Source: Nocardioides sp. (lineage in GTDB: Bacteria; Actinomycetota; Actinomycetes; Propionibacteriales; Nocardioidaceae). From it: a stretch of 34,938 nt of DNA. Under the pieces are notes generated by a model, which saw nothing but the letters and a program-made list of their open reading frames with translations, was not told where the DNA came from and made no database searches. Position numbers and translations under genes: made by a program. Where the stretch lies: NCBI GenBank assembly GCA_025965125.1, contig JAOPXM010000105.1:1-34938 (forward strand). Reading direction: 5' to 3'. Below are positions 7,479-23,131 of this stretch, piece after piece; the first letter of the stretch is position 1; every line of letters begins with the position of its first letter.

Positions 7479-7495
7479 CCCGGCGCGTCGCCGGG
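7479..7495 (-). terminator. Hairpin 3' of FAH-family gene
   Basis: CCCGGCG-CGT-CGCCGGG, a perfect 7-bp GC-rich stem, sits one base beyond the stop of the FAH-family gene, in the position of a terminator. It separates the island from smc, which is transcribed in the same direction. No U-tract follows, as is common for terminators in high-GC actinobacteria. Confidence 0.5.
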
Positions 7496-7496
7496 C

Positions 7497-8348
7497 TCAT
7501 CCGTGCCGGAGCCGCACCGTTGATCTCAGGGTGCCGATGCGGTCGATCGTGACTTCCACCTGGTCGCCGTCACGCAGAAAGCTCGGCGGGTTCATGGCAA
7601 CCCCGACGCCCGGGGGCGTACCCGTGAGCAAGACATCGCCAGGCTCCAGCGTGATGAACCTGGAGACGTGGACCAGGAGCTCTGGGACCGAGAAGATCAG
7701 GTCGGAGGTGCTTCCCTCCTGACGCTGCTCACTGTTGACCGTCGTGATGAGCGTCAGTCCCGAAGCATCGCCCAGCTCGTCGGAGGTGACGATGACCGGT
7801 CCGAGGGGGGCGAAACCGTCACTGCCCTTGGCTCGCCACCACTGACCGTCGTTGCGCTGCTGCGTTCGAGCAGACACGTCATTGGCGATCGTGTATCCCA
7901 GCACGTGAGAGAGCGCCGCCTCGTGGGTGACCCTTCGACATTGCTTGCCGATGACGACGGCGAGCTCGCCCTCGTAGTCAAGCTCGCCCAGGCCGGAGTC
8001 CGCCACCTCGATGTATCCGTCCGGATCCACGAGCGAGCCGCTGAACTTTGCGAACAGCATCGGCTCGGCCGGCGCTGCCCGCCCGGTCTCCGCCGCGTGC
8101 GCGCCATAGTTCAATGCGGCGCACAGGATCCGTCCGGGACGCCGCACTGGGGTGAGGAACCGGAGCTGCTGGGCCGTCAGGCTGCCCAAGCCCGAACCGT
8201 TCAGGTCCACCCCGGCGTGCAGTGCTTCCTGGAGCACGTCCGCGGCGACGTGATCGGACTCATGGGCCAGCACGACGGCCGTCTCGCCCTCGAGCCGGAC
8301 CAGCGCCGGCCGGTCCGCGTCAGGCGGCTGAACTCGCGCGATCCGCAC
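7497..8348 (-). CDS. Fumarylacetoacetate hydrolase (FAH) family protein
   Basis: A 283-aa protein with the FAH/2-hydroxyhepta-2,4-diene-1,7-dioate isomerase fold. Visible motifs are ALNYGAH (about 78-84), the metal-binding ELDYEGELAVVIG with E126 and E128, NDVSARTQQRNDGQWWRAKG with D157, and the C-terminal GDVLLTGTPPGVG. Members hydrolyse or decarboxylate 2,4-dioxo acids or 2-keto sugar-acid derivatives using Mg2+ or Mn2+. In sugar and aromatic catabolism they usually perform the last C-C cleavage. The GTG start lies one base after the stop of the upstream Dabb gene, so the two form one transcript divergent from lysR. The exact substrate is unknown; the island context suggests a ketoacid made by the dehydrogenases encoded further along. 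Confidence 0.9.
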   Translation of the reverse strand: MRIARVQPPDADRPALVRLEGETAVVLAHESDHVAADVLQEALHAGVDLNGSGLGSLTAQQLRFLTPVRRPGRILCAALNYGAHAAETGRAAPAEPMLFAKFSGSLVDPDGYIEVADSGLGELDYEGELAVVIGKQCRRVTHEAALSHVLGYTIANDVSARTQQRNDGQWWRAKGSDGFAPLGPVIVTSDELGDASGLTLITTVNSEQRQEGSTSDLIFSVPELLVHVSRFITLEPGDVLLTGTPPGVGVAMNPPSFLRDGDQVEVTIDRIGTLRSTVRLRHG

Positions 8349-8349
8349 C

Positions 8350-8664
8350 TCAGCGCTCCGCCGTCAACGCGCCGGCCGGCTCCCAGATGAAGTCGACGCA
8401 GATGTGCTCGGAGGTGACCGAACGGTTGTAGGCCACGACCTCCAGATGCAGCGGGTGGTCCTGGTAGGCGTCGAGCGACGCCTTGTCGGCGAAGGTGATT
8501 CGGACGCAGTAGTCGAAGCCGCGAGAGCGGTCGCCGAAGTTCTTGCCCAGCGCGAAGTCGAGGGCCCCGGGGACGTCCTTGAGGCGACCCAGCTGCCGCA
8601 TGAGCTCCGCCTCGGTCTCCGCAGACAGGTCTTCGGCCTTGAACATGATGACGTGATCGAGCAT
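8350..8664 (-). CDS. Dabb family (stress-responsive alpha/beta barrel) protein
   Basis: A 104-aa protein with the Dabb ferredoxin-like fold. It starts MLDHVIMFKAEDLSAE, resembling the usual M-x-x-HVVLFK opening, and continues with the central GRSRGFDYCVRITFADKASLDAYQDHPLHLE block that contains the conserved Y-Q-x-H-P-x-H. Such proteins form dimers; some are cyclases or degradative accessory enzymes and many are uncharacterised. I chose ATG 8664 because the motif begins there and the LysR box at 8723-8737 then lies upstream of the gene. A longer frame beginning at 8724 would place the start inside that box. It is followed one base later by the FAH gene. Confidence 0.85.
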   Translation of the reverse strand: MLDHVIMFKAEDLSAETEAELMRQLGRLKDVPGALDFALGKNFGDRSRGFDYCVRITFADKASLDAYQDHPLHLEVVAYNRSVTSEHICVDFIWEPAGALTAER

Positions 8665-8722
8665 GTGACCATCGTCGGTGCGGTCGTGGGCATGCGTCCA
8701 ATACCAGTGTTGACCTGCGCCC

Positions 8723-8737
8723 ATAGAGAACGCCTAT
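8723..8737. promoter_or_regulatory. Putative LysR operator (T-N11-A box), copy 1
   Basis: ATAG-AGAACGC-CTAT is a 15-bp interrupted dyad with the T-N11-A arrangement recognised by LysR-family regulators. It lies in the intergenic space between the Dabb-FAH operon and lysR. The same ATAG-N7-YTAT form recurs twice upstream of the island's other divergent operons (12117-12131 and 12141-12155). Confidence 0.6.
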
Positions 8738-8745
8738 CTTCACCG

Positions 8746-8760
8746 GCCGACCCGGTCGGC
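8746..8760. promoter_or_regulatory. 15-bp dyad next to LysR box
   Basis: GCCGACC-C-GGTCGGC is a perfect inverted repeat with 7-bp arms. Its centre is 23 bp from the centre of the LysR box, close to the 24-bp spacing of the paired boxes at the adh-sdr promoter. It may be a second regulator contact or a hairpin in the lysR leader. Confidence 0.35.
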
Positions 8761-8819
8761 TCGGACCACCCGAGGGCGACCGGCGCCCAACCGAGATCTG
8801 CGCTGAGTATTCTGGTGTT

Positions 8820-9722
8820 GTGCGGTTACGCCAGCTCGAGTATCTGGTTTCCATCTGCGAGCACGGCTCCTTCAGTGCAGCCGCGCAGCGATTGCTGGTT
8901 GCCCAGCCCTCCCTCTCCCAGCAGATCCGCGCTCTGGAGCGCGAGTTGGGGGCAGAGCTCCTGGAGCGGGGCCGCCACGGGGTATCGCTCACCCCTGCCG
9001 GTCGCGTCTTCCTGCCCCTTGCCCAGGCGGTGCTGGACGCAGCGGACGCCGCACGGGCCTCGGTCGCAGACGTTGTCAGCGGCACGGGTGGCGAACTGCA
9101 CGTCCTCACCATCCGCTCGGTGGCCTCAGGCATCCTCCCGGGCAGCATCGCACGCTGGCACGAGACGCATCCGTCCACCGTCCTGCGCCTCCACGACTAC
9201 TCCCATCGCCGGGACCTGGAGGAGGCGGTGCGCCAAGGGCGTGGCGACCTCGCCATCGGACCCCGGCCCCCTGATTGGGACGGCGACGTGGTCTCGCTCG
9301 GCTTCGAGGACTTGGTCGTGGCCGGTCGTGGCCCGTTCGACGGAAGCGCGGTCGCGGTCGAGGAGCTCGAGGCTGCCAAGTGGGTCCTCTTCGAGCCTGA
9401 ACAGGGGATGTCAGAGGTGCTCGAATGGGTGGCGCGGACCTTCGAGTTCACCCCCACCGTCGCGGCTCGCGTCGGTCAGGTCGCGGCAGCATTGAACCTC
9501 GCCGTGGAGGGTGTGGGTCTCGCAGTCATACCGGCCAATGCCGTGCCGCACGGCTGGCGACATCACGTGCGAACCCTGAAGCCGCCCGTGTACCGCGAGA
9601 TAGTCGCCTACAGCCGCGGCACCATGGCGCAGCTGACACGTCTGTATGTGGACCTGTTGACCTCGGTCGAGCTGCCGTTGACTCCAGCGGAACAGATGCC
9701 CGACGATGCCTTCACCTGTTGA
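8820..9722 (+). CDS. LysR-family transcriptional regulator
   Basis: A 300-aa regulator. Residues 1-60 form the winged helix-turn-helix with the classic pattern LRQLEYLVSICEHGSFSAAAQRLLVAQPSLSQQIRALE. The rest is the periplasmic-binding-like co-inducer domain. The GTG start gives the exact family N-terminus. It is divergent from the Dabb-FAH operon and converges on the DUF3500-adh operon with only 14 bp between. This position and the repeated T-N11-A boxes make it the obvious regulator of the island, probably activating in response to a pathway intermediate and regulating itself. The effector cannot be predicted from the sequence. Confidence 0.93.
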   Translation: MRLRQLEYLVSICEHGSFSAAAQRLLVAQPSLSQQIRALERELGAELLERGRHGVSLTPAGRVFLPLAQAVLDAADAARASVADVVSGTGGELHVLTIRSVASGILPGSIARWHETHPSTVLRLHDYSHRRDLEEAVRQGRGDLAIGPRPPDWDGDVVSLGFEDLVVAGRGPFDGSAVAVEELEAAKWVLFEPEQGMSEVLEWVARTFEFTPTVAARVGQVAAALNLAVEGVGLAVIPANAVPHGWRHHVRTLKPPVYREIVAYSRGTMAQLTRLYVDLLTSVELPLTPAEQMPDDAFTC

Positions 9723-9736
9723 GTGAAGCGGGGTCC

Positions 9737-10921
9737 TCAGCCATGCTGTGAAGTCGCCTGGTGAGAACCCAGCGGATCGAGACCGAAGTCCCCCATCGGG
9801 TCACGCCAGACCGAGTGAGCGTGATTCGCGTCGCGTTGGGTGTTGTCGTACTCGACCAGGAGCCGGGGAGAGCAGAGCCGGTAGTAGTGGGGTGCGCCCG
9901 GCGCGATGTCACCGGCCCAGCCGAAGACAACGCCGTCGAGCACGTCATCGGCCAGGTACAACCGGCGATGCGCCTCGGCGATCGGTTCGGGTGAGCGATC
10001 CGTATAGGTCGCCAGGAGGCTCCTCAGCAGCTCACGCTGGTCCAGGTCCAGCTCGCTCGCAGCAAGGCCCGCAGGTGCTGTTCCGAGCGCCATGCGCTCG
10101 TGATCGGCTCCTGTGTATTCGGACCCTCCTTCCGCGACCTCGTCGATCCGGTCCACCAGCGCCGCGAGCCGCGGGGTTGGCAGCGACCGAAAGAGCTGCT
10201 GCATGTGCATCATCTGGTCACCGGGCTGAACGCGGGCGCGATTCCCGGAAACGATGTCGGAGATCGCTCGAGGATGAAGGAGTGCGAGCTTTCGCTCCGC
10301 GGGCGTGAGGGACTCCATCAGAGTTCGCGCGGCGTCCTCCGTGCCTCCCAGCGGCCTCAGCGTGTCGCCCAGCAGGGGCGACGACGCCGGATCGGCCCCG
10401 AGGAAGCAGGGGGTGACGGCGGCGATGCGCCCCTCACGGACGAGCAGGTTGACCGACACGTGGTGCCCGCCGAACCGCCATCCCCACGTGGACTCACCCG
10501 GGTCGCCGAACACCCGAAGCCAGTACAGGCCCGGATCGCGGCCCCGCTCCCGTCCCCAGTCCGTGTGCCAGCCTTCGAGCTCGTCCAGGACGTTCTCGAG
10601 GCCGAGGACGGTGCACAGAGTCACGTAAGCGGACCGGGTGAGCGCGGTCGAGACCAGCTGCATCACCAGGCTCTGCTGTTGGGGCAAGAGATCACGCAGC
10701 GCAAGGCCACCGTGATCGGTGGGTGTGTAGAACCAGCGCACCCTCTCGGCCTCGACATCTGGATCCGTCAGCGGGGCCCACTGGGACAGGGCACGCTGCT
10801 CGGCTGCCAATGAGTGCAGGAGCTCGACGACGATGCCTGTCATCTTGCCCACGAGAGCCCGCTCGGTGTCGGCCAGGACGTCCGTCGAGGCGTCCCGGAT
10901 CGTCACGTCGTGAGCACTCAT
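9737..10921 (-). CDS. DUF3500 domain protein
   Basis: A 394-aa protein that I recognise as DUF3500 from the blocks WGWRFGGHHVSVNLLV, TPCFLGADPA, LRPLGG near the centre, and the C-terminal LLVEYDNTQRDANHAHSVWRDPMGDFG. DUF3500 proteins have no established biochemical role known to me. The conserved His pairs (GGHH, NHAH) and Asp residues are compatible with a metal site, but that is inference. Start ATG 10921 overlaps the alcohol dehydrogenase stop by 4 nt (ATGA), so it is translationally coupled to it. An in-frame extension to 11266 would overlap that gene and has no family resemblance. No signal peptide is visible, so it is probably cytoplasmic. Confidence 0.85.
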   Translation of the reverse strand: MSAHDVTIRDASTDVLADTERALVGKMTGIVVELLHSLAAEQRALSQWAPLTDPDVEAERVRWFYTPTDHGGLALRDLLPQQQSLVMQLVSTALTRSAYVTLCTVLGLENVLDELEGWHTDWGRERGRDPGLYWLRVFGDPGESTWGWRFGGHHVSVNLLVREGRIAAVTPCFLGADPASSPLLGDTLRPLGGTEDAARTLMESLTPAERKLALLHPRAISDIVSGNRARVQPGDQMMHMQQLFRSLPTPRLAALVDRIDEVAEGGSEYTGADHERMALGTAPAGLAASELDLDQRELLRSLLATYTDRSPEPIAEAHRRLYLADDVLDGVVFGWAGDIAPGAPHYYRLCSPRLLVEYDNTQRDANHAHSVWRDPMGDFGLDPLGSHQATSQHG

Positions 10922-12027
10922 GAGCCCGAAGGGTGACCAGGTGTGTCCTCGGAGATGTCGAGCATCACCTTGATCGCGTCTCCGCGGCGCTCCGCGTAGG
11001 TGTCGAAGGCCTCGGACACCTCCTCCAGGGGGAAATGATGGGTGACGAGGGTCTCGGTCTCCAGTCGTCCCTGACTGGCGAGCGACACTGCCCTGGCGAG
11101 GGAGCCGCTCCCCTCGCCTCGAACCGAGTACAGATTGATGCCGTTCATGACAGCCTCGTTCAAGTTTGCGGTCACGGGGTGCTCGAAGAACCCGACGAGG
11201 ACAACCCGTCCGGCACGCTTGCACATGAGCAGCGCGTCGTCGACAGCAGACGGGGCACCCGAGCACTCCATGACGATGTCCACTCCGTGCCCGTCGCCCA
11301 TCTCCCTGACGCGGCTCACAACGTCGCCGTCACGAGCGTTGAGCACCAGGTCGGCACCGAATGTGTGCCCGAGCTTGAGTCGCGATTCCCTGGTACCGAT
11401 CAGAGCCACCGACTCTGCGCCCAGCTGCTTGGCGACCTGCACTGCGAGAAGGCCGATGGGGCCTGGACCGATCACGGCAACCCGCGCGCCGACGACGAGG
11501 TCGTTCAGCACATCGAAGGCGTGCATCACCGTTCCGACGGTGGTCAGGATCACCCCGGCATCGAAGCCCAGCGAGTCCGGCAGACGATGGAGCGTGGACA
11601 CGTGGTTTCGCGCGTACTCCGCAAAGCCCCCGTTGACTGTCATGCCCTGGGTGCGGTGGCCCTTGTGCTGCTTGCCGTAGTTGAGGCAGTCCGTGTACTT
11701 GCCGTGCAAGCAGTTGGAGCAGCGCATGCATCCCCGATGGGCTTCCGTCACCACCCGGTCCCCGACTGCAAACTCGTCCACGGCGGAGCCGATGGCCGCA
11801 ACGACGCCGGCGTACTCATGGCCAGGCACGAACGTGTCGACCGGTGGCCCGTCTCCCTTGAAGAACTTGCGGGCGCGGATCTTCAGGTCCGTGCCGCACA
11901 GAGACGCGCGGCGTACCTGGACCAGGACGTCCTCGGACCCCAGCTCGGGTACGGGCAGCTCGCGGGCGTGGATCACGCCTGCCGGGCCCAGCACCGCGGC
12001 CGTCATCACGTCCGGAAGCGTTGTCAT
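10918..12027 (-). CDS. Zinc-dependent alcohol dehydrogenase (MDR family, polyol/threonine dehydrogenase-like)
   Basis: A 369-aa medium-chain dehydrogenase. Catalytic-zinc residues C44 (ASLCGTDLK) and H70-E71 (PGHEYAG) and four structural-zinc cysteines (C100, C103, C106, C114) are present. The nucleotide fold has GPGPIG at 187-192. It should oxidise a secondary alcohol or polyol to a ketone with NAD(P)+. ATG 12027 is chosen over an in-frame start at 12051 because GAGGA lies 8 nt before it. It is the first gene of the minus-strand adh-DUF3500 pair, opposite the ten-gene operon, with two LysR boxes in between. The substrate is probably the imported compound or its first breakdown product. Confidence 0.93.
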   Translation of the reverse strand: MTTLPDVMTAAVLGPAGVIHARELPVPELGSEDVLVQVRRASLCGTDLKIRARKFFKGDGPPVDTFVPGHEYAGVVAAIGSAVDEFAVGDRVVTEAHRGCMRCSNCLHGKYTDCLNYGKQHKGHRTQGMTVNGGFAEYARNHVSTLHRLPDSLGFDAGVILTTVGTVMHAFDVLNDLVVGARVAVIGPGPIGLLAVQVAKQLGAESVALIGTRESRLKLGHTFGADLVLNARDGDVVSRVREMGDGHGVDIVMECSGAPSAVDDALLMCKRAGRVVLVGFFEHPVTANLNEAVMNGINLYSVRGEGSGSLARAVSLASQGRLETETLVTHHFPLEEVSEAFDTYAERRGDAIKVMLDISEDTPGHPSGS

Positions 12028-12116
12028 CGTGCAGTTCCTCACTGTCAGCACACGGATGGCTTCTCAGAATGGGGTGCCGTCGAGGCGCTGTCCAAGACCT
12101 CTCTCCCCTCGGTGCC

Positions 12117-12131
12117 ATAGCCGCTGCTTAT
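12117..12131. promoter_or_regulatory. Putative LysR operator (T-N11-A box), copy 2
   Basis: ATAG-CCGCTGC-TTAT, 15 bp with the T-N11-A arrangement, lies in the divergent adh/sdr promoter region. The preceding GCC makes it part of a GCCATAG direct repeat with copy 3, exactly 24 bp away, as expected for a regulator binding two adjacent sites on one DNA face. Confidence 0.6.
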
Positions 12132-12140
12132 GCAACGGCC

Positions 12141-12155
12141 ATAGGCATTTGCTAT
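12141..12155. promoter_or_regulatory. Putative LysR operator (T-N11-A box), copy 3
   Basis: ATAG-GCATTTG-CTAT has perfectly symmetrical 4-bp arms, like copy 1 beside lysR. Together with copy 2 it is bracketed by a further inverted repeat, GTGCCA (12112-12117) and TGGCAC (12159-12164). Confidence 0.65.
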
Positions 12156-12277
12156 CGCTGGCACAGCCGATTGGTCTTTGCGTGACGGGCGCCACAGGGA
12201 CGAAAGTTTCGGTTCACGACACGACGGTCCGCGCCATCGCATCAAGGCCCGAACCGTCTTACCTGGGAGGACAACCC

Positions 12278-13063
12278 ATGGATCTAGGCATCGCCGGCCG
12301 CACCGCGCTGGTCCACGGCGCCGGTGGCGGACTTGGGGGCGCGATCGCCGCCGCCCTGGCCAATGAGGGAGCTGCTGTCGCAGTCGCCGATCTTCGTGGC
12401 GACGCCGCCGAGGCGACGGCGCAGCGGATCCGCGATGCCGGCGGTCGGGCGTTTCCATTGGCTTGGGACCTCGGCGACCTGAGGGTGACCGATGCAAACA
12501 TCAGCCAGATCGAGCAAGAGCTCGGTTCCGTCGACATCTTGGTGAACAACACGGGAGGCCCGCCGCCCACAGCCGTCCTGGGGGTCGACCCAGCACAGTG
12601 GGAGAGCCAGTTCCGGTCGATGGTGATGTCGGTCGTGGCGATCGCCGATCGTGTGGTGCCCGGGATGCGGGAACGTGGCTGGGGGCGTGTGGTGACCAGC
12701 GCGAGCTCCGGTGTGGTTGCGCCCATCCCGAACCTGGGACTGTCCAACTCTCTCCGTGCCGCGCTCGTGGGCTGGTCGAAGACACTCGCTCGCGAGGTCG
12801 GTCCGGATGGCGTGACGTGCAACATCGTGGTGCCGGGCCGCATCGGCACCGCGCGGATTCGTTCCCTCGACGAGAGCAAGGCCGCCCGGGAAGGGCGTTC
12901 GGTCGACGAGGTGAGCGGTGAGAGCGTCGCGTCCATCCCGATCGGCCGGTACGGCGATCCCGCGGAGTACGCCGCTGCCGTGGCCTTCCTGGCGAGCGAA
13001 CCTGCTTCCTACATCACCGGTTCGGTCCTTCGGGTCGACGGTGGCCTGATCCCCAGCATCTGA
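12278..13063 (+). CDS. SDR-family oxidoreductase lacking the canonical YxxxK motif
   Basis: A 261-aa short-chain dehydrogenase-like protein. ATG 12278 is preceded by GGGAGG at a good distance. The cofactor motif is LVHGAGGGLGG (11-21) and the NNAG position reads NNTGGPPP (90-97). The active-site region is SASSGVVAPIPNLGLSNSLR. Aligning on S143 at the usual 13-residue spacing puts S156 where the catalytic Tyr should be and R160 where the Lys should be. The C-terminal ITGSVLRVDGG is typical of the family. It belongs to the SDR subset with S-N-x-x-R in place of Y-x-x-x-K. Whether it reduces or oxidises anything is uncertain. It is the first gene of the ten-gene plus-strand operon. Confidence 0.88.
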   Translation: MDLGIAGRTALVHGAGGGLGGAIAAALANEGAAVAVADLRGDAAEATAQRIRDAGGRAFPLAWDLGDLRVTDANISQIEQELGSVDILVNNTGGPPPTAVLGVDPAQWESQFRSMVMSVVAIADRVVPGMRERGWGRVVTSASSGVVAPIPNLGLSNSLRAALVGWSKTLAREVGPDGVTCNIVVPGRIGTARIRSLDESKAAREGRSVDEVSGESVASIPIGRYGDPAEYAAAVAFLASEPASYITGSVLRVDGGLIPSI

Positions 13064-13081
13064 CCACGAGAGGACGCCGAG

Positions 13082-14014
13082 ATGACCTTGATCGACGCAA
13101 ACACCCGCGGTGTCTACGCCATCGCGCCGACGCCGTTCCACGAGGACGGCGCGCTCGACCTGGCCTCCCTGGACCGGTTGCTCGACTTCTACGGGGAGGC
13201 GGGCGTCAATGGCCTGACCCTGCTCGGTCAGCTGGGCGAGGCGCCGAAACTGACTCACGGCGAGTCTGTCGAAGTGGTGAGGACCGCGATCACCCGGACT
13301 CAGCTCCCCATCGTGGTAGGCGTTTCGGCCCCGGGCTTCGGCTCGATGAAGGCCCTGACCGAGGACGTCATGGCGCTCGGAGCAGCCGGCGTGATGGTCG
13401 CACCCCCCAACACCCTGCGCACCGATGAGCAGATCGTTGGCTACTACGCCGGCGTCGGTCGAGCACTGGGGCCCGACGTGCCGGTGGTCCTCCAGGACTA
13501 TCCACTGACGTTCTCCGTGGTCATGTCGCCGAAGGTCATCGCGCGGATCGCGAACGAGGTGCCCTCGGTCGTCATGCTGAAGCACGAGGACTGGCCCGGA
13601 CTGGAGAAGATCAGCGCCCTGCGAGCCGCCGAGGACACCGGCGACATGCGTCGTCTCTCCATCCTCTGCGGCAACGGTGGCCTCTTCCTCGACTTCGAGA
13701 TGAAGCGCGGAGCCGACGGAGCCATGACCGGCTACTGCTTCCCGGAGCTGCTGGTCGACGTGGTTCGCCTGAACCGCGAGGGCAACGCCGACGAGGCCCA
13801 TGACCTTTTCGACGCGCACCTGCCGCTCATCCGATACGAGCAGCAGGCGGGGACGGGTCTGGCCGTGCGCAAGCACGTCATGGCTCGCCGTGGCCTGCTC
13901 GCGTCCGATGCCCAGAGAGCTCCTGGCCGGGCACTGTCCCCTACCGAGCGAGCGGAGGTCGACTACCTCCTCGAAAGGCTGGGCCGACGCGATCCTCGCG
14001 CCAAGCTCGACTGA
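13082..14014 (+). CDS. Dihydrodipicolinate synthase (DapA/NAL) family aldolase or dehydratase
   Basis: A 310-aa class I aldolase-type TIM barrel. The Schiff-base lysine is K167 (VVMLKHED) and the supporting tyrosine is Y140 (VVLQDYP), both at family spacing. The phosphate or carboxylate loop that reads G-T-T-G-E in true DapA reads GQLGE here (49-53), so lysine biosynthesis is unlikely. A catabolic role such as retro-aldol cleavage or dehydration of a 2-keto-3-deoxy sugar acid is more plausible. It lies 18 bp after the SDR gene in an operon of oxidoreductases and a sugar-type importer, which fits a catabolic keto-acid step. The substrate is not identifiable. Confidence 0.9.
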   Translation: MTLIDANTRGVYAIAPTPFHEDGALDLASLDRLLDFYGEAGVNGLTLLGQLGEAPKLTHGESVEVVRTAITRTQLPIVVGVSAPGFGSMKALTEDVMALGAAGVMVAPPNTLRTDEQIVGYYAGVGRALGPDVPVVLQDYPLTFSVVMSPKVIARIANEVPSVVMLKHEDWPGLEKISALRAAEDTGDMRRLSILCGNGGLFLDFEMKRGADGAMTGYCFPELLVDVVRLNREGNADEAHDLFDAHLPLIRYEQQAGTGLAVRKHVMARRGLLASDAQRAPGRALSPTERAEVDYLLERLGRRDPRAKLD

Positions 14015-14095
14015 CCGGAAATGCCCAACCCCCTGCGGCGAACCGGGTCGCTGTCATCCGAGACACCACGTCTCACCTAAGAAAGGTAGACCCTC

Positions 14096-15190
14096 ATGTT
14101 TCACCGACCGGCATCCGCGAGGACCCTCGTGGCCGTCGCGAGCGCCTTGACGCTCTCGCTGTCACTGGCCGCATGTGGCCGGGGCGCGGGCCAGGCGACC
14201 GACACCCCGTTCAAGTCGCGCATCGACGTACCGACAACCGACACCATGGTCGACGCGTCGCAGTACAAGACGGACGCTCCCTGGACCATCGGCTACAGCG
14301 ATGCTTCCCTGTCCAACTCCGCCCGCGTGACGATCTGGCAGTTCACCCAGTGGGCGGCTTCTGAGTACCCGCAGATCGACAAGGTCGTCCGCACCAACGC
14401 CGATGACAACCCGAACCAGCAGACCTCGGACATCCAGGACCTGGTGTCTCGTGGGGTCGACTGCCTCATCGTCTCAGCGACCTCCACCGACGCCGTGGTT
14501 CCCGCCATCGAAGCGGCGAACGCCAGCGGGATCCCGGTCGTGATCCAGGAGCGCGATGTCGAGACCGACAAGTACACCGTCTTCGTCAACTCCGTCACCC
14601 GCGACATCGGCCGTCTGCAGGCAGAGGCCGTGGCGAAGACGTTGAACGGCAAGGGCAAGGTCGTGCTCCTCGAGGGCCTCGCAGGCTCCGGTCCGGCTGA
14701 GGAGGCACGCAAGGGCCATGAGGAGGTCCTGGCGAAGTACCCAGGCATCGAGGTCCTCGACACCGTCTACTCCGGCTGGGACCGAGCTGTCGGCAAGAGC
14801 ACCATGGAAGACTGGCTCCAGACCTACCCCGAGATCGATGCCGTGATCTCGGACTCGGGAATCCAGAACATGGGTGCCTACGAAGCCGTTGAGGCCGCGG
14901 GACGGACCGACGAGATCAAGGCCTGGACTGGCGACAGCCTGCAGGCCTGGATCCGCCTGGTCAACGAGAAGAAGATCCCGGGCGTCATCGTCAACCGTCC
15001 GCTGCGGTTCGGCGCCATCGCTGTGGATGCCTGCGCCAACCTCCTGGCCGGCAACGACGTCCCCCGCGAGTGGCTCGACCCTGTGGAGGCGCTCGACATG
15101 AACAAGCTTGCGGACTACATCGCGCCCAACACGCCTGGGTCCGACGAGTACTGGGACTGGTGGGACCTGCCGAAGGCGTGGCGGCAGTAG
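14096..15190 (+). CDS. Ribose-type ABC transporter substrate-binding lipoprotein
   Basis: A 364-aa secreted protein with a lipoprotein signal peptide: positively charged start, hydrophobic core (LVAVASALTLSLSL) and lipobox LAAC with C27 as the lipidated residue. The mature part is a type I periplasmic-binding fold of the Peripla_BP_4 family (WTIGYSDASLSNSARVTIW, DDNPNQQTSDIQDLVSRGVD, ASGIPVVIQERDV). It is anchored outside the membrane and delivers ligand to the permeases encoded downstream. Many family ligands are monosaccharides, but the group also binds nucleosides, polyols and autoinducer-2. The gene follows an 81-bp gap with an AAAGGTAG ribosome-binding site. The aromatic C-terminus (YWDWWDLPKAW) is notable. 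Confidence 0.94.
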   Translation: MFHRPASARTLVAVASALTLSLSLAACGRGAGQATDTPFKSRIDVPTTDTMVDASQYKTDAPWTIGYSDASLSNSARVTIWQFTQWAASEYPQIDKVVRTNADDNPNQQTSDIQDLVSRGVDCLIVSATSTDAVVPAIEAANASGIPVVIQERDVETDKYTVFVNSVTRDIGRLQAEAVAKTLNGKGKVVLLEGLAGSGPAEEARKGHEEVLAKYPGIEVLDTVYSGWDRAVGKSTMEDWLQTYPEIDAVISDSGIQNMGAYEAVEAAGRTDEIKAWTGDSLQAWIRLVNEKKIPGVIVNRPLRFGAIAVDACANLLAGNDVPREWLDPVEALDMNKLADYIAPNTPGSDEYWDWWDLPKAWRQ

Positions 15191-15253
15191 TGACCGGCTC
15201 ACCGACCCGCCGAGACCGGCCCAGCAAGGACGCTTGAAGGAGATGACCCAACC

Positions 15254-16849: not shown

Positions 16850-17919
16850 CTGACACGATCGCACGCCCGAGGGCGCCAATGGCTGAAAGCGGCGCCGCCC
16901 CACGCCCCGCAGTGCGCTGGGACCGGTGGCTCGGCCCACTCTGGCTCTGGAGCCTGCTCGTGGTGACCGTCATCATCGGCTTCATCGCCTCACCGCACTT
17001 CCTGACCACGCTGAACCTGTCCAACGTGCTGCAGCAGGCGGCTCCACTTGTCATCCTCGTCGCTGGTCAGACCTTTGCCCTGATCGTGGCAGGCATCGAC
17101 ATCTCGGTGGCCGCGACGATCAGCATGGGAACGACCTTGATGATGATGGTCGTCAACGGGGATCCGTCCCGGATCCCACTGGGCCTGGCCGCAGTTCTGC
17201 TCGCCGCCGTCGCAGTCGGGGTGCTGAACGGGGCGGCGATCACGCTCCTCGAGGTGCCGGCCTTCATCGTGACGTTCGGGGTGGCCAGCATTGTCCAAGG
17301 GGTCGTGTTCCTCTACACCGACCAGGTGAACGTGGGATCGCCGGCCCCCCAGATGACCGAGTGGGGCTATCGCACCTGGGGTCCGGTTCCGTTCCTCGCC
17401 GTGGTCGCCCTGGCATTCGTCATCCTCGCGCTCGTCATCCAGAATCGAACCCGGTTCGGACGCTGGATGTACGCGGTCGGTGGCGGCGAGGAAGTGGCCA
17501 GGCTCGCCGGCATTCCGGTCAAGCGGGTTCGCGTGGCGGCCTACGTGTTCTGCGCCGTCTCGGCGGCGGTTGCGTCCCTGGCCATCTCGCTGCGGACTGG
17601 TAGCGGCGACCCGTTGGGCGGGTCTGGGTTCGACTGGGACTCGATCGCGGCCGTCGTCATCGGCGGCACAGCGCTGAGCGGCGGGCGCGGCGGCGTGGCA
17701 GGGAGCGTGCTGGGGGCCCTGTTGCTGATCACGATGGGCAACATCATGAACCTGGTGGGCGTCTCCGGCTTCTGGCAGATCGTCGTCCAGGGAGCGGTGG
17801 TCATCCTGGCCGTCACCGTCTCGACGGTGCAGACCCGCCGTGCCCAGCGACTCGCCCGCACGAACATTGCCGTCCAGAAGGACAAGCGACGTCTCAAGCT
17901 GAGGAGACAAGATCGATGA
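16846..17919 (+). CDS. Ribose-type ABC transporter permease 1
   Basis: A 357-aa multi-spanning membrane protein of the RbsC/BPD_transp_2 family. A 30-residue polar N-terminus is followed by about nine or ten hydrophobic segments. Family blocks are clear: VAGQTFALIVAGIDISVAA, the EAA-like RTRFGRWMYAVGGGEEVARLAGIPVKR stretch, and AVVIGGTALSGGRGGVAGSVLGALLL. It forms the channel with permease 2. The GTG start overlaps the ATPase stop and its own stop overlaps permease 2 (ATGA), so the transporter genes are translationally coupled. Its basic C-terminal tail (KDKRRLKLRRQDR) is probably cytoplasmic. Confidence 0.95.
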   Translation: MTDTIARPRAPMAESGAAPRPAVRWDRWLGPLWLWSLLVVTVIIGFIASPHFLTTLNLSNVLQQAAPLVILVAGQTFALIVAGIDISVAATISMGTTLMMMVVNGDPSRIPLGLAAVLLAAVAVGVLNGAAITLLEVPAFIVTFGVASIVQGVVFLYTDQVNVGSPAPQMTEWGYRTWGPVPFLAVVALAFVILALVIQNRTRFGRWMYAVGGGEEVARLAGIPVKRVRVAAYVFCAVSAAVASLAISLRTGSGDPLGGSGFDWDSIAAVVIGGTALSGGRGGVAGSVLGALLLITMGNIMNLVGVSGFWQIVVQGAVVILAVTVSTVQTRRAQRLARTNIAVQKDKRRLKLRRQDR

Positions 17920-18905
17920 GCAGCATGACGACACCCGAAGTTTCGGCCGGCCCCACGTCCGCACGCGGTCCACGTGTGAACCGTGAGCACCTGGCACAGG
18001 CCGGGCCGTATCTCCTCCTGATGGCGCTCTGCATCATCGCGACCCTCCTGTCCAGCGCGTTCCTCACCGGCGAGAACATCACCAACGTCCTGCGGCAGTC
18101 CTCTCCGCTCCTCGTGGTCGCTGCCGGCCAGACGCTGGTGATCCTCGTGGGCGGGATCGACGTGTCGGTCGGCGCCGTGGTCTCCTTCACGACCGTCATC
18201 GGCGGCAGCGTGATGGCCTCGAGCAACACGAAGATCCTGCCGACGGTCGCGCTCGTGCTGGGATTCGGAGTGCTGGTCGGGCTCGTCCACGCGCTGCTCA
18301 TCGTCAAGCTGGGCACGGACCCCTTCGTGACCACACTGGGCACGATGCTGTGCCTCAACGGGCTCGACCTCGTGTACTCGGGCGGGTCCCCTCGCAGCGG
18401 TGTGACGCCGGAGTTTCGAGGACTGACGCAGAACTCCGTGCTGGGGATACCGATCGTGGTCTACGTCGTCGCGGTCCTCACAGCCCTGCTGATCGTGGCG
18501 CTCACAGGCTCCACATGGGGCAGGCGAGTGCACGCCGCCGGCGGCAACGCCGCCGCTGCCCGATTGTCGGGAATCCGGGTCGAGCGCGCACAGGCGTCGA
18601 CCTACGTGCTCTGCAGCGTGCTGGCAGTCGTCGGCGGGCTGATCCTGCTGGCCCGAATCGGCACCGGTGACACCGGGGTAGGAGACGCCTACACCCTGAA
18701 CTCGATCGCGGCCGTGCTCATCGGGGGCACGGTCTTCGGCGGCGGCCGCGGTGGAGTCGGCGGCAGCATTGCCGGGGTTCTGATCCTGGCGGTCCTGTTC
18801 AACGTGTTCAACCTGCTGGGTGTGTCGAACTACGCCCGGCCGGTGGTGCTCGGCGTCGTCGTGATCCTCGGCATCGCTCTCTACACCCGGCGCAGAACTT
18901 CCTGA
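17916..18905 (+). CDS. Ribose-type ABC transporter permease 2
   Basis: A 329-aa RbsC-family permease, paralogous to its upstream neighbour (AAGQTLVILVGGIDVSVGAVVS, RRVHAAGGNAAAARLSGIRVERAQ, AAVLIGGTVFGGGRGGVGGSIAGVLILA). Two different permeases imply a heterodimeric channel, whereas the Escherichia coli ribose system uses one permease twice. The ATG overlaps the previous stop by 4 nt. A 62-nt gap containing two hairpins follows before the amidohydrolase gene. Confidence 0.95.
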   Translation: MSSMTTPEVSAGPTSARGPRVNREHLAQAGPYLLLMALCIIATLLSSAFLTGENITNVLRQSSPLLVVAAGQTLVILVGGIDVSVGAVVSFTTVIGGSVMASSNTKILPTVALVLGFGVLVGLVHALLIVKLGTDPFVTTLGTMLCLNGLDLVYSGGSPRSGVTPEFRGLTQNSVLGIPIVVYVVAVLTALLIVALTGSTWGRRVHAAGGNAAAARLSGIRVERAQASTYVLCSVLAVVGGLILLARIGTGDTGVGDAYTLNSIAAVLIGGTVFGGGRGGVGGSIAGVLILAVLFNVFNLLGVSNYARPVVLGVVVILGIALYTRRRTS

Positions 18906-18910
18906 CTCCC

Positions 18911-18944
18911 GGACCGGACGGTCCCCTGAGCCGCGGCCCGCGGC
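18911..18944 (+). other. Two tandem hairpins between transporter and enzyme genes
   Basis: GGACC-GGAC-GGTCC (18911-18924) and GCCGCG-GCC-CGCGGC (18930-18944) are perfect GC-rich stems placed back to back just after the permease 2 stop. They may act as a partial terminator or as an mRNA 3'-end stabiliser that sets a different expression level for importer and downstream enzymes. Confidence 0.45.
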
Positions 18945-18967
18945 CGACACCGCAAAGAAGGAATCGA

Positions 18968-20389
18968 ATGAAGAAGGCTCTGATCACGAACGCCTACCTG
19001 ATCACCATGGACGCCAACCGGCGCACGCTCTCAGGTGGAGAGGTCCTCATCGGCGACGACAAGATCCTCGAAGTGGGACACGACCTCCCACGCGATGACG
19101 CCGAGGTACTGGACGCCCGGGGCGGCATCGTGATGCCCGGACTGGTGGACAACCACCGTCACATGTGGCAGACGAACCTGCGTGCCATGCTGGCGGACTG
19201 GTCCCTGCACGAGTACATGCGGGGCATCCGGTTCAGCATCTCGCCTGTCCTCACCGCCGAGGACATCGGAGACGCCGACTACATCGGGGCACTGGAAGCG
19301 TTGAATGCCGGTGTCACCACGGTGTTCGACTATTCGCACAGCGTCAACAGCCCTGACCACGCAACCGCGGCTGCAGAGGCGCTCATCGAGAGCGGTATCC
19401 GCGCGGTGTACGGATACGGACTCGTGCAGGCTCCGGTCTCGCATCCTGCCTTCACCTCCGTGGAAGATCGGATCAAGGACGCACATCGTCTGTACGACGA
19501 GGTTCTCCCCAGCGGGGAGACGCTCGTGACCATGGGCATGGCGCTCAGCGAGGTGGGACTGATTCCCTGGACCGACTCGATGAAGGAGCTGCGGGCGTCC
19601 CAGGAGATGGGGGTGCCGGTCTCCATCCACAACAACATCTTCTTCGGAAGCACGGTCTCCCAGGGCGTGCGCCCGATGCACGAGGCGGGGCTCCTCCACG
19701 AGGCACAGACGCATGTCCACTGCACGACATGCACCGCGGACGAGTTCAAGATGCTCGCGGACGCGGGATGCTCGGTCGTGTCGACTCCCGACACGGAGAT
19801 CGGGATGGGCATGGGTCATCCGGTGTTCGCCGAAGCGAAGGCGGCGGGCGTCCGGTCCGTGGTCGGTTGCGACATCATCACGCTCAACGGTGGCGACATC
19901 GTGAGTCAGCTGCGCGTCGGCCTCCAGGACGCGCGGGTGCGAATCAACGATCAGTACAACGCACGCAACGAGATGCCCCTCACCCTGGAACCGCGATCCA
20001 TGGACGCCCTGGCGTGGGGCACCATCAACGGTGCCGAGGCCCTGGGCATGGGATCGAAGATCGGCAGCCTGGAGCCAGGCAAGCAGGCCGACGTGCTCGT
20101 GATGAGCGTGGACGGTCCCAACATGTGGCCGCTGATGGAGGAGCCCGGCACGGTCATCTTCCACACTCACCCGCAGGACATCGAGACAGTGTTCATCGCC
20201 GGCAAGAAGGTCAAGGAGAACGGGCGCCTCGTCGGCATCGACTACGCGGCCGCACGACGGCGGGCCGAGGCCTCGCGCGACCGAATCCTCGCTGCGGCGC
20301 ATGACAGGACCGGTGTGGTGCTGCCGCCACCCGAAAGCATGTCGCTCCTCTCGCTCGAGAAGACCGCCGTCGAGAACATGGCGCGGTGA
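18968..20389 (+). CDS. Amidohydrolase of the ATZ/TRZ (chlorohydrolase/deaminase) family
   Basis: A 473-aa metal-dependent hydrolase with a beta-sandwich plus TIM-barrel layout. The HxH motif is at H63/H65 (GLVDNHRHMWQT). Further probable metal or catalytic residues are H221 (VSIHNN), H251 (THVHCTT) and D302 (VGCDIITLNGGD). The C-terminal IGSLEPGKQADVLVM is the family hallmark. Relatives deaminate or dechlorinate s-triazines, guanine, cytosine or thioadenosine. Here the residue three after H221 is Ile, not the Glu of the deaminase HxxE motif, so the reaction is uncertain. The gene opens the enzyme half of the operon after two hairpins. It suggests an N-containing substrate, unlike ordinary sugar catabolism. 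Confidence 0.92.
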   Translation: MKKALITNAYLITMDANRRTLSGGEVLIGDDKILEVGHDLPRDDAEVLDARGGIVMPGLVDNHRHMWQTNLRAMLADWSLHEYMRGIRFSISPVLTAEDIGDADYIGALEALNAGVTTVFDYSHSVNSPDHATAAAEALIESGIRAVYGYGLVQAPVSHPAFTSVEDRIKDAHRLYDEVLPSGETLVTMGMALSEVGLIPWTDSMKELRASQEMGVPVSIHNNIFFGSTVSQGVRPMHEAGLLHEAQTHVHCTTCTADEFKMLADAGCSVVSTPDTEIGMGMGHPVFAEAKAAGVRSVVGCDIITLNGGDIVSQLRVGLQDARVRINDQYNARNEMPLTLEPRSMDALAWGTINGAEALGMGSKIGSLEPGKQADVLVMSVDGPNMWPLMEEPGTVIFHTHPQDIETVFIAGKKVKENGRLVGIDYAAARRRAEASRDRILAAAHDRTGVVLPPPESMSLLSLEKTAVENMAR

Positions 20390-21426
20390 GCGCGGCCATG
20401 TCGAAGTCTGATGCCGGACCCCTGTCGGCTGCCCTTGTCGGGCTGGGTTGGTGGGGCTCGAGGATCGCCCGCACGCTGCAGGACTCGCCCGTCCTTCGCC
20501 CCGTCATCGGGGTGGATCCATCGCCGGAAGCCCGGGCGGTCGCCTCGGAGCGGCACGGGATCCCAACGGCAGCCACCCTCGAAGAAGCGCTGACCATGGC
20601 CGACGTGGACGTGGTGATCATCTGCTCGCCCCACCAGCAGCACGCTGCGCAGATCATCACTGCCGCCGAGGCCGGCTGCCACGTGTTCGTCGAGAAGCCG
20701 TTCACGCTCAACCTGGACGACTGTCGGCGCGCCCTCCAGGCGGTGGAGGCCGCCGGCGTCCAGGTCGGCATCGGCTATGAACGACGCTTCGAGCCCGCCG
20801 TGGAGGCGTTGTCCGCACGGTGCGCCGCGGGCGACCTGGGCCAGCTGATGCTGGTCGAGGCCAACTTCAGTCATGACCGGTTCCTGGCGCTGCCGTCGGA
20901 CAGCTGGCGGCTGTCCTCACAGCACGCTCCGGTCGGACCGCTCTCGGCGACCGGTATCCACCTCGTGGACCTCGCCATCAACCTGCTCGGACGGCCGGTC
21001 GAGGTCTGGGCGTCCTGCTCGACGCTTGCGACCTCCTTCGAGAACGGCGACGCGCTCTCGGTCATGATGACGTTCGAGTCCGGGGCCACTGCACATCTGA
21101 ACGCCGTGCTGGCCACCCCGTTCCAGGGCCGGCTTCGTGTCTTCGGCGCGAATGAGTGGGTCGAGATCGCTGACCGCACGCATCCCGACGCCGCGTCGGG
21201 GTGGGACGTCACGCGGGCGACTCCCGCGGGCGCCCCAGAGACCACCTTCGAGGCTCCGTTCGACTCGGTTCGGGAGAACCTCGAACGATTCGGGTCGTGG
21301 CTCCTGGGTGGGGCGCCCTATCCGATCACTCCTGAGCAGATCCAGCTCAGCGTGGCGACGTCGGACGCCATCATGCGCTCGGCTCTCCACGGCGGCGTGC
21401 AGCCCGTGGCAGAGGTGCTCGCATGA
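20386..21426 (+). CDS. Gfo/Idh/MocA family oxidoreductase
   Basis: A 346-aa NAD(P)-dependent dehydrogenase. The Rossmann motif AALVGLGWWGSRIA (15-28) and the catalytic-lysine motif EKP (103-105, VFVEKPFTLNL) are both present. The C-terminal alpha/beta domain includes SATGIHLVDLAINLLGRPVEVWA with the family's G-x-H-x-x-D. The family oxidises or reduces sugars, inositols and their acids. The GTG start overlaps the amidohydrolase stop (GTGA) and its stop overlaps the next gene (ATGA). An ATG at 20398 is an alternative start. It probably acts on the ring hydroxyl of a sugar- or cyclitol-like intermediate. Confidence 0.92.
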   Translation: MSAAMSKSDAGPLSAALVGLGWWGSRIARTLQDSPVLRPVIGVDPSPEARAVASERHGIPTAATLEEALTMADVDVVIICSPHQQHAAQIITAAEAGCHVFVEKPFTLNLDDCRRALQAVEAAGVQVGIGYERRFEPAVEALSARCAAGDLGQLMLVEANFSHDRFLALPSDSWRLSSQHAPVGPLSATGIHLVDLAINLLGRPVEVWASCSTLATSFENGDALSVMMTFESGATAHLNAVLATPFQGRLRVFGANEWVEIADRTHPDAASGWDVTRATPAGAPETTFEAPFDSVRENLERFGSWLLGGAPYPITPEQIQLSVATSDAIMRSALHGGVQPVAEVLA

Positions 21427-22313
21427 GCGGCCAGAGGACAGTCGGGTTCGTGGGCCTGGGGGCGATGGGCAGTCCGATGTCTCGTCACCTCCTGGAGGCG
21501 GGGTGGCGGGTGGTGGGCTACGACAGCGCCGCCTCCGCTCTCGAACGCCACCGAGCGAACGGCGGCGAGACGGTGGATGATCCCGCCGACCTACGGGGGC
21601 AGACAGACGTCGTCGTCACGTCGTTGCCCACCGCGGGGGCACTCCGTGCCACGCTCGATCGGCTCGCGAGCTCGGCGACCGAGGCTCCCCTTCGCGTCGT
21701 CGAGGTCAGCACCCTGTCCCTCGGAGAGAAGGAGGCTGCCCGGGACCAGGCTGAGCGGGCCGGCATGCGGCTCCTGGACTGCCCCGTGAGCGGGACCAGC
21801 GCGCAGGCTGAGCGTGGGGACCTGATCATCTACGCCAGCGGCGGCGACCGCGACGACGAACCCTACGTCCGGCCCGTGCTGACGGACATGTCCCGCCAGA
21901 TCTACGACGTCGGACCCTTCGGCGACGGCACGAAGCTGAAGCTGGTCGCGAACCTCCTGGTGGCGATCCACAACCTCTCGTCCGCCGAGGCCCTGCTCCT
22001 GGCGGACCGCGCGGATCTGGACCTGGAGGCAGTACTTCCGGCGCTCGTCGACGGTGCGGGGTCGTCCCGGATGCTCGAAGTCCGCGGGCCGCTCATGGTC
22101 GCCGGGGACTACGAGCATGCCACCGCCCGGGTCGAGGTGTTCCGCAAGGATCTTCGGGCCATTCGCGACCTGGCCGACTGGCTCGGAGTGCCCACCCCGC
22201 TTCTCTCGGTCACCTCCATGATGTACGACGCAGCAGCGGGCCAGGGTCGCGCGCACCAGGACACGGCGTCTGTCTACGCCGTCGTCAGGCGACTGGCCGG
22301 AGCCCCTGAGTGA
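21423..22313 (+). CDS. NAD(P)-dependent beta-hydroxyacid dehydrogenase (3-hydroxyisobutyrate dehydrogenase-like)
   Basis: A 296-aa protein with the family N-terminal signature VGFVGLGAMGSPMSRHLLEAG (7-27), the substrate-binding DCPVSGTSAQAERGDL (119-134) and the catalytic lysine K173 in GDGTKLKLVANLL. The usual K-x-x-N-N reads K-L-V-A-N. Relatives oxidise 3-hydroxyisobutyrate, tartronate semialdehyde or related 3-hydroxyacids. It is translationally coupled on both sides by 4-nt overlaps. In this island it could process a 3-hydroxyacid fragment released by the lyase. The precise substrate is unknown. Confidence 0.92.
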   Translation: MSGQRTVGFVGLGAMGSPMSRHLLEAGWRVVGYDSAASALERHRANGGETVDDPADLRGQTDVVVTSLPTAGALRATLDRLASSATEAPLRVVEVSTLSLGEKEAARDQAERAGMRLLDCPVSGTSAQAERGDLIIYASGGDRDDEPYVRPVLTDMSRQIYDVGPFGDGTKLKLVANLLVAIHNLSSAEALLLADRADLDLEAVLPALVDGAGSSRMLEVRGPLMVAGDYEHATARVEVFRKDLRAIRDLADWLGVPTPLLSVTSMMYDAAAGQGRAHQDTASVYAVVRRLAGAPE

Positions 22314-23092
22314 GCGCGCGAGACGCAGCCTTCGAGTTCCAGGGTTCGGTCGTTCTGGTCACCGGAGGCGGCAGCGGCATCGGTCGTGCCGTTGCTCGCG
22401 CCTTCGACGAGGCGGGCGCGACTGTCGTCATCACCGGGCGGCGCAGCCAACCGCTCCAGGACGTGGTGGACGCCTCTGCGTCCGGCCGGGTCCACGCCCT
22501 CGAGGCAGACGTCGGGCGACTCGAGGAGGTTCACCGGCTCGTCGCCGAGGTCGTCGCGACGTACGGGAAGATCGATGTCGTCGTGAGCAACGCGGGAAAG
22601 TACGTGGGGGGCTCCATCCACGAGATCGAGGAGTCGGACTGGCGCGCGATGCTCGGGTCGAACGTCGAGGGGCTCTTCAACCTGGCCAAGGTGACCTTCC
22701 CGGAGCTTGAGCGAACCCAGGGTTCGCTGGTTGCTGTTTCGAGTGTCTCGGGGCTTCGAGGGGACTGGGGCCAGGCGCCGTACAACGCGACCAAGGGGGC
22801 GGTGAGCCAGCTCGTGAGGTGCCTGGCTCTGGACTGGGGCGCTTCCGGCGTTCGCGTCAACGCGATCGCACCTTCGTTGACGGACACGGAGGCCACCCAC
22901 GACCTGGTCATGGACCGGGAGATGGCCACCCAGTTCGCGGCGCGCACCGCCTTGGGACGCCTGGCTGAACCAGAGGACATGGCCCCGGCCGTGCTCTTCC
23001 TCGCGAGTCGGGCGGCGGCCTACATCACCGGTGTCATTCTCCCCGTGGACGGTGGCACGAGTGCCTCGAGCGGCCAGGCACACGTCACGTGA
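22310..23092 (+). CDS. Classical SDR-family oxidoreductase (FabG-like)
   Basis: A 260-aa short-chain dehydrogenase with all canonical elements: TGGGSGIG (18-25), SNAG (93-96), catalytic S145, Y158 and K162 (APYNATKGAVSQLV), and the C-terminal ITGVILPVDGG. Unlike the first SDR of this operon it should be catalytically competent. The GTG start overlaps the previous stop (GTGA). It is the last gene of the island operon and a hairpin follows just after its stop. It probably oxidises a hydroxyl of the pathway substrate; fatty acid synthesis is unlikely in this setting. Confidence 0.93.
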   Translation: MSARDAAFEFQGSVVLVTGGGSGIGRAVARAFDEAGATVVITGRRSQPLQDVVDASASGRVHALEADVGRLEEVHRLVAEVVATYGKIDVVVSNAGKYVGGSIHEIEESDWRAMLGSNVEGLFNLAKVTFPELERTQGSLVAVSSVSGLRGDWGQAPYNATKGAVSQLVRCLALDWGASGVRVNAIAPSLTDTEATHDLVMDREMATQFAARTALGRLAEPEDMAPAVLFLASRAAAYITGVILPVDGGTSASSGQAHVT

Positions 23093-23094
23093 GG

Positions 23095-23114: not shown

Positions 23115-23131
23115 GGCCTAGGTTTGCGCCT

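Follow-up and report, generated by a model that had tools for sequence, protein, structure and literature searches.

An inserted catabolic island of Nocardioides with a DUF3500 protein as a candidate ring-opening enzyme

We analyzed a stretch of 34,938 nucleotides from Nocardioides sp. (contig JAOPXM010000105.1), hereafter the window, in which a segment of 16,384 bases (16.4 kb) inserted between smc and a gene of the major facilitator superfamily (MFS) carries a catabolic island of 15 genes. Judging by its gene content, the island probably takes up and degrades a ring-shaped compound. It is made of two modules, a core and a feeder (Table 1), which we tentatively read, with a confidence somewhat short of half, as a conserved LysR-regulated lower pathway that would open a ring and a set of genes that would import the growth substrate and turn it into the ring intermediate. 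This reading is based on the conserved gene order of the core, on shared palindromes, on the proximity of DUF3500 genes to hydroxylases or FAH-family hydrolases in part of their loci, on a review of the fungal homolog AN10530, and on the presence of feeder and core genes together in another actinobacterial contig (L035). The island is more than a chance neighborhood, since it is inserted with respect to G004, the closest relative found, its order partly recurs in four genomes, and a palindrome is common to the core promoters.

The island and its insertion

Family searches and checks of the open reading frames (ORFs) agreed on the strands of the genes and confirmed the order given in a preliminary description of this DNA. 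Its gene content and 4-nucleotide overlaps stood as described, and its count of 14 genes became 15, located at 7497-23092. The genes encode, in order, a hydrolase (FAH), a Dabb-domain protein, a LysR regulator, a DUF3500 protein, a zinc-dependent alcohol dehydrogenase (ADH), a short-chain dehydrogenase (SDRa), a DapA-family lyase, the substrate-binding protein, ATPase and two permeases of an importer, a TRZ/ATZ amidohydrolase, a Gfo/Idh oxidoreductase, a 3-hydroxyisobutyrate dehydrogenase (HIBADH)-like protein, and a second short-chain dehydrogenase (SDRb). Overlaps of 4 nucleotides join ADH to DUF3500, the ATPase to the first permease and this to the second, and the amidohydrolase, Gfo/Idh, HIBADH-like, and SDRb genes in series. 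From SDRa to SDRb, all genes lie on the forward strand with gaps of 18, 81, 63, -4, -4, 62, -4, -4, and -4 bases. The left neighbor of the island is smc (TIGR02168, 926 bits), and to its right come the MFS gene and then mutM (NF002211, 326 bits).

Among the matches listed when the best 25 NCBIfam families per protein were considered, only 2 of the 15 genes, encoding the amidohydrolase and SDRb, passed a curated cut-off. The amidohydrolase belongs to PRK08204, a subfamily of "hypothetical protein," and SDRb also passes PRK07231 (215.8 versus 215). Within the same matches, the best for FAH was 2,4-didehydro-3-deoxy-L-rhamnonate hydrolase (NF053535; 221.7 versus a cut-off of 500) and for ADH L-threonine 3-dehydrogenase (227.5 versus 458.35), and SDRa reached no cut-off. 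Compared with solved chains, the lyase was nearest to 3dz1 (405 bits), followed by L-2-keto-3-deoxyarabonate dehydratase (116 bits). The preliminary description had found no named pathway for this set, and we likewise found none like it assigned to a substrate in the open-licence papers searched.

Of the relatives found, G004 has the smc N-terminus most like that of the window (98%). There, the stretches that correspond to the window up to 7490 and from 23875 onward are 85 bases apart, with 89% identity on each side, and in a second relative (G010) the MFS gene through smc is also contiguous. The segment was either inserted here or lost elsewhere; insertion is the simpler reading, and loss in the relatives is the less simple alternative. 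The analysis supports the catabolic island of the preliminary description, which had not noted the insertion or linked DUF3500 to ring opening. The smc loci of 29 relatives (with ca. 1.5 kb of flank) showed the MFS gene beside smc in 8, mutM in 7, and neither in 14, and FAH appeared in none of the 29. In one of these 14 (G024), a separate 3.2-kb stretch (L182, between 1358 and 4558) parts the MFS gene from smc, so the junction may be a recurrent place of insertion. The GC content is 0.674 in the island and 0.700 in the remainder of the window. Family scans recognized no integrase among the scanned island proteins, and no terminal repeat was found at the segment ends, the sole repeat within 7300-25300 lying between the two permeases. 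Promoter and terminator scans gave nothing exceeding shuffled sequences, and a megablast of the island against plasmids returned only short fragments from 5 records.

A core conserved across genomes

The core is laid out as FAH / LysR / DUF3500-ADH | SDRa-lyase, with the Dabb gene beside FAH in the window. Four genomes (G426, G166, G085, and G376) keep LysR, DUF3500, ADH, SDRa, and the lyase together at 58 to 79% identity. The genome from a different family (G426) has all six core genes, FAH included, at 70 to 79%; G166 and G085 have the other five at 62 to 74%, with FAH not near; and G376 has the five at 58 to 72%, with LysR adjoining the lyase. A flavin aromatic hydroxylase is found near the core in three of the four (G426, G166, and G085) and is of PRK06184 type in the two that were scanned (G085 and G166). 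In G426 and G085, the core is adjoined by an FAD aromatic hydroxylase, an alpha/beta hydrolase, and an Amidohydro_2 protein, the hydrolase of G426 being nearest to 2,6-dihydroxypseudooxynicotine hydrolase (2jbw, E 8.4e-17). In G166, the neighbors are a hydroxylase, an alpha/beta hydrolase, and a PRK08204 amidohydrolase.

Lyase homologs at E 1e-60 or better were found in 5 of 394 genomes of the class, own genome counted, and DUF3500 homologs at E 1e-40 or better in 13; lyase and DUF3500 share one cluster in 4 of the 5 lyase genomes. Relatives of SDRa also occur in other contexts, without the lyase. In plasmids of Rhizobium, Neorhizobium, and Paracoccus (L119, L121, and L122), an SDRa relative closes a cluster of dihydropyrimidinase, allantoinase PuuE, a thiamine pyrophosphate enzyme, and a dihydroorotase-family gene, which looks like an uncharacterized pathway for a cyclic ureide or pyrimidine. 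Relatives of SDRa and the lyase are adjacent or flank an RraA gene in proteobacterial plasmids (L109, L110, L112, and L115), as a separate catabolic module. The ORFs of an Embleya record gave no lead.

A palindrome at the core promoters

The palindrome ATAG-N7-CTAT occurs between Dabb-FAH and LysR and as a pair in the ADH/SDRa promoter region. At up to one mismatch, the window has 4 matches, versus a mean of 0.56 in shuffled sequences (0 of 100 shuffles reached 4); the fourth match, at 15539 with one mismatch, falls within the ATPase gene and is probably due to chance. The ADH/SDRa region has two sites spaced by 24 to 28 bp in the window, G426, G166, and G085, and a single one, with one mismatch, in G376. 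Near LysR, G426 and G166 have a site that G085 and G376 lack; in G166 it lies between LysR and a divergent PRK08204 amidohydrolase gene. The exact palindrome was present at 13 of 145 loci, many of which duplicate one another through overlap; in two (L073 and L077) it is away from a core. These predicted sites fit the T-N11-A type of LysR-regulated operons, at the promoters of regulator and targets. Since the palindrome is common to the FAH/LysR and ADH/SDRa promoters in the window and its relatives, it supports control of the core by LysR. The LysR control proposed in the preliminary description is supported for the core; the feeder lies on the same strand with small gaps and has no upstream site. 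The palindrome at 8723-8737 overlaps the start of the longest Dabb ORF, and the true start may therefore be further inside.

DUF3500 and its neighbors

An alignment of 52 DUF3500 sequences, some of them near-duplicates, showed eight invariant residues (H153, H154, E357, H367, H369, R373, D378, and H387), which suggests a metal site. One relative has a solved structure (PDB 9x86, "Amc20"), for which we found no description in the literature. A scan of viral contigs for further sequences gave no relative in 18 candidate stretches.

We compared 41 DUF3500 loci: the window, L035, three plasmid records, and 36 genome loci with wider flanks, 20 of which were hand-picked from the 65 of 195 genomes with matches. 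A flavin aromatic hydroxylase lies within 10 kb of DUF3500 in 10 of the 41 and FAH in 7, the window being one of these 7; either is present in 13, several spans being as short as 5.9 to 11 kb. The background of FAH matches is 42 per ca. 55 Mb (nine genomes). A 4-nucleotide overlap joins the hydroxylase ORF to the DUF3500 ORF in L101 and L103, and among solved chains the L101 enzyme is closest to 2,6-dihydroxypyridine hydroxylase (2vou, E 1.2e-65). The six DUF3500 neighbors scanned in L139 encode a cupin, RraA, a RidA-type protein, an FAA-hydrolase-family protein, an HpcH/HpaI aldolase, and an FAD hydroxylase; this set of six showed no ring-cleaving dioxygenase of a classical kind, although the cupin might be one. 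Two further loci are of note: L077 (9931-19901; G027) has DUF3500 at 33% identity together with FAH, an FAD monooxygenase, and genes of an importer that is a distant relative of the ribose-type one in the window, and L134 (7283-9147; G049) has a tandem pair of DUF3500 genes.

In a review (PMC12388069), the DUF3500 protein AN10530 of Aspergillus nidulans is proposed to be a dioxygenase that converts 1,2,3,5-tetrahydroxybenzene to 5-hydroxydienelactone. Another paper (PMC8416521) lists a DUF3500 gene (D6M20_RS19315) and an aromatic hydroxylase gene (D6M20_RS19290) of Rhodococcus qingshengii RL1 under nearby locus tags.

The feeder and its relatives

The feeder consists of the ribose-type importer, the TRZ/ATZ amidohydrolase, Gfo/Idh, the HIBADH-like enzyme, and SDRb. 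Relatives were found in five actinobacterial metagenome-assembled genomes (MAGs), which, from their isolate names, we take to be of freshwater origin. The amidohydrolase is present in all five (66 to 74%), Gfo/Idh in four (48 to 55%; one locus is cut by the contig end), an SDRb-like gene in five (32 to 35%), and a HIBADH-like gene in two (46 to 48%). A more distant ABC importer is present in all four MAGs whose importer side is covered. Because identities are weak, these SDRb-like and importer genes may not be orthologous to those of the window. A search of the phylum with Gfo/Idh at E 1e-70 returned only the own genome (1 of 296).

The single pathway proposed in the preliminary description is not an invariant unit. 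Within the stretches compared, the core is found without the importer/amidohydrolase block in G426, G166, G085, and G376 and the block without the core in L032 to L034 and L036; L035 has both on one contig (amidohydrolase 66%, FAH 38%, DUF3500 46%). In L034, genes for an FAD hydroxylase, a protein of the PPOX class, and a GntR-like protein come before the block, similar to genes beside DUF3500 in L101, L103, and L074. The amidohydrolase and DUF3500 are both present, on different contigs, in the genome of L033 (G485). That of L034 (G455) is not among the 13 DUF3500 matches of the 394-genome sample, which presumably includes it. Beside the amidohydrolase block of L033 (8149-13019) are genes for a luciferase-type monooxygenase, a protein with a flavin reductase domain, and an enol-lactonase-like hydrolase.

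A tentative pathway and its alternatives

From the gene families, we infer the chemical steps, the substrate, and the joint work of core and feeder as follows. The DUF3500 protein, probably metal-dependent, would open a polyhydroxylated or enolic six-membered ring, for which our best guess is 1,2,3,5-tetrahydroxybenzene or an isosteric trihydroxypyridine. Cleavage of tetrahydroxybenzene between adjacent hydroxyls would give 2,4-dihydroxymuconate, i.e., 2,4-dioxoadipate, an acylpyruvate. FAH-family enzymes hydrolyze acylpyruvates, and FAH would here act on the 2,4-diketo acid product, 2,4-dioxoadipate yielding pyruvate and malonate. ADH, SDRa, and the lyase, whose parts are less clear, may finish the ring fragments, and the importer, amidohydrolase, Gfo/Idh, HIBADH-like enzyme, and SDRb would take up the substrate and convert it to the ring intermediate.

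Several observations weigh against this pathway. Neither FAH nor a hydroxylase is near DUF3500 in 28 of the 41 loci, and for this reason our confidence stays below half. Of the 5 tight-core loci, 2 (the window and G426) have FAH adjoining the core, the fifth lyase genome (G542) has the lyase without SDRa or DUF3500 in the 20 kb examined, and the proteobacterial plasmids L109, L110, L112, and L115 carry SDRa and the lyase (63 to 65% each) with no DUF3500 match. The importer and amidohydrolase genes of the window have no palindrome upstream, so that LysR could control the feeder only by read-through from SDRa. A structure model of DUF3500 built with the window and L035 sequences had a pLDDT of 42 and was discarded, and no function of a bacterial DUF3500 protein was found in the open-licence literature. 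Finally, the own genome (assembly 92% complete) showed neither flavin hydroxylase type at E 1e-8, only one 54-residue hydroxylase-like stretch at E 2.9e-7, and no match to a 2vou-like query in a search that had no positive control. For these last reasons, it is more likely that the ring compound is here supplied through the importer module. We consider it very unlikely that this supply consists in the aromatization of an imported oxygenated ring (a cyclitol, an aminocyclitol, or a cyclohexenone such as the mycosporine core) feeding a tetrahydroxybenzene-type pathway. In such a variant, the amidohydrolase would strip an amino substituent, Gfo/Idh and the SDRs would oxidize the ring, and loss of water would give a polyhydroxybenzene for DUF3500 to open; in terms of formula, inositol would become C6H6O4 by one oxidation and two dehydrations.

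The ribose-type importer would also suit the catabolism of a sugar acid or cyclitol without any aromatic step, in which an imported polyol or sugar derivative is oxidized by Gfo/Idh, ADH, and the SDRs, a 2-keto-3-deoxy acid is cleaved or dehydrated by the lyase, a 2,4-diketo-3-deoxy acid is hydrolyzed by FAH, and DUF3500 has another role. The best matches of Gfo/Idh (inositol 2-dehydrogenase) and FAH and the place of the lyase among solved chains point in this direction, as does a Bosea locus (L124) in which an SDRa relative (62%) occurs with a ribose-type importer and DUF3500 is not annotated. However, those matches are far under the family cut-offs, and DUF3500 overlaps ADH and is kept alongside ADH, SDRa, and the lyase in four other genomes, three of which have flavin aromatic hydroxylases near; we regard this route as unlikely. 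Catabolism of an N-heterocycle appears less probable still: an imported pyridine, pyrimidine, or ureide would be deaminated or opened by the amidohydrolase, and DUF3500 would act on a hydroxylated nitrogen ring such as trihydroxypyridine. This would agree with the TRZ/ATZ family of the amidohydrolase, with the likeness of the relatives' partners to nicotine-catabolism enzymes (the hydroxylase to 2vou and the alpha/beta hydrolase to 2jbw), and with the SDRa relatives (65 to 66%) found with dihydropyrimidinase, allantoinase, and dihydroorotase-family genes. Yet nicotine-type enzymes are not recognized in the island, the 2vou-like query had no match in the own genome, the substrate proposed for the fungal DUF3500 protein is carbocyclic, and nitrogen release is a purely hypothetical step.

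The island might instead be two unrelated catabolic modules placed side by side, the core and the importer/amidohydrolase block acting on different compounds, to which we give the same low probability as to the N-heterocycle route. Each module is found without the other in the stretches compared, G455 is not among the DUF3500 matches, and the palindrome is at core promoters only. But the genes from SDRa to SDRb run on one strand with short gaps or overlaps, the amidohydrolase accompanies FAH and DUF3500 in L035 and DUF3500 in G485, and in G166 the palindrome separates LysR from a PRK08204 amidohydrolase gene; these points weigh against two unrelated modules.

Relation to known pathways

Martins et al. 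(2024) reportedly described a fungal cluster with a DUF3500 protein, an FAH-like protein, a short protein, and a flavin monooxygenase that would supply the ring compound. The island shares DUF3500 and FAH with this proposed tetrahydroxybenzene pathway and adds LysR, ADH, SDRa, the DapA-family lyase, and a sugar-type importer. The flavin monooxygenase has no counterpart in the island, whereas several bacterial DUF3500 relatives have one, and for lack of it we did not assign the island to that pathway. The nonphosphorylated L-rhamnonate and L-arabonate pathways use the same superfamilies for FAH, SDR, and the DapA-family lyase but differ in the low scores of FAH and the lyase given above and in the aldonate dehydratase, none being recognized in the island. 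Inositol and cyclitol catabolism has in common the importer type and the Gfo/Idh superfamily, and scyllo-inosose 3-dehydrogenase is among the ADH matches; however, IolG scores 124 versus 355 and IolM 187 versus 450, and no other iol gene was recognized in the island. The plain inositol, rhamnonate, and arabonate pathways were rejected on these scores. Nicotine catabolism of the pyrrolidine type was rejected for the window itself, since neither 2,6-dihydroxypseudooxynicotine hydrolase nor 2,6-dihydroxypyridine hydroxylase, relatives of which lie near DUF3500 in other genomes, was recognized in the island.

Table 1. Features of the inserted segment (bit scores; "versus" gives the cut-off)
Feature	Module	Position	Strand	Basis
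Whole inserted segment, smc / MFS gene		7491..23874		Junction comparison with G004
FAH-family hydrolase	Core	7497..8348	-	PF01557, 247 bits; 70% ortholog in G426
Dabb-domain protein		8350..8724	-	PF07876, 60.9 bits
Palindrome ATAG-N7-CTAT, proposed LysR site		8723..8737	+	Exact; between Dabb-FAH and LysR
LysR-family regulator	Core	8820..9722	+	PF00126 + PF03466; 60-72% orthologs in four genomes
DUF3500 protein, proposed ring-opening enzyme	Core	9737..10921	-	PF12006, 237.8 bits versus 27.2; ORF start 10921
Zn-dependent alcohol dehydrogenase (ADH)	Core	10918..12051	-	PF08240 + PF00107; 4-nt overlap with DUF3500
Paired palindromes, proposed LysR sites, ADH/SDRa promoter		12117..12155	+	12117-12131 one mismatch, 12141-12155 exact
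SDRa, short-chain dehydrogenase	Core	12278..13063	+	PF13561, 158 bits
DapA/DHDPS-family lyase	Core	13082..14014	+	PF00701
Ribose-type substrate-binding protein	Feeder	14096..15190	+	PF13407; RbsB 105 versus 337
Importer ATPase	Feeder	15254..16849	+	PF00005 in two stretches
Importer permease 1	Feeder	16846..17919	+	PF02653
Importer permease 2	Feeder	17916..18905	+	PF02653
TRZ/ATZ-type amidohydrolase	Feeder	18968..20389	+	PRK08204 subfamily, 428.5 bits versus 391
Gfo/Idh/MocA oxidoreductase	Feeder	20386..21426	+	PF01408; inositol 2-dehydrogenase 124 versus 355
3-Hydroxyisobutyrate dehydrogenase-like	Feeder	21423..22313	+	PF03446 + PF14833; L-threonate dehydrogenase 173.9 versus 350
SDRb, short-chain dehydrogenase	Feeder	22310..23092	+	NF052558, meso-2,3-butanediol dehydrogenase, 297.2 versus 270
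APH-family phosphotransferase-like ORF		23132..23815	+	PF01636, 51.9 bits; within inserted segment

The APH-like ORF begins 39 bases past SDRb, and its GC content at third codon positions (0.90) is closer to that of the flanking genes than to that of most island genes.

Significance

The island would be a variant of regulated ring-opening catabolic clusters. If the reading is true, DUF3500 would be a class of bacterial ring-opening enzymes whose regulon, operator, and partner genes are defined, and the recently proposed fungal polyphenol route would extend to bacteria. It would also suggest a way in which some actinobacteria could exploit polyhydroxylated rings while lacking a ring-cleaving dioxygenase of the classical type.

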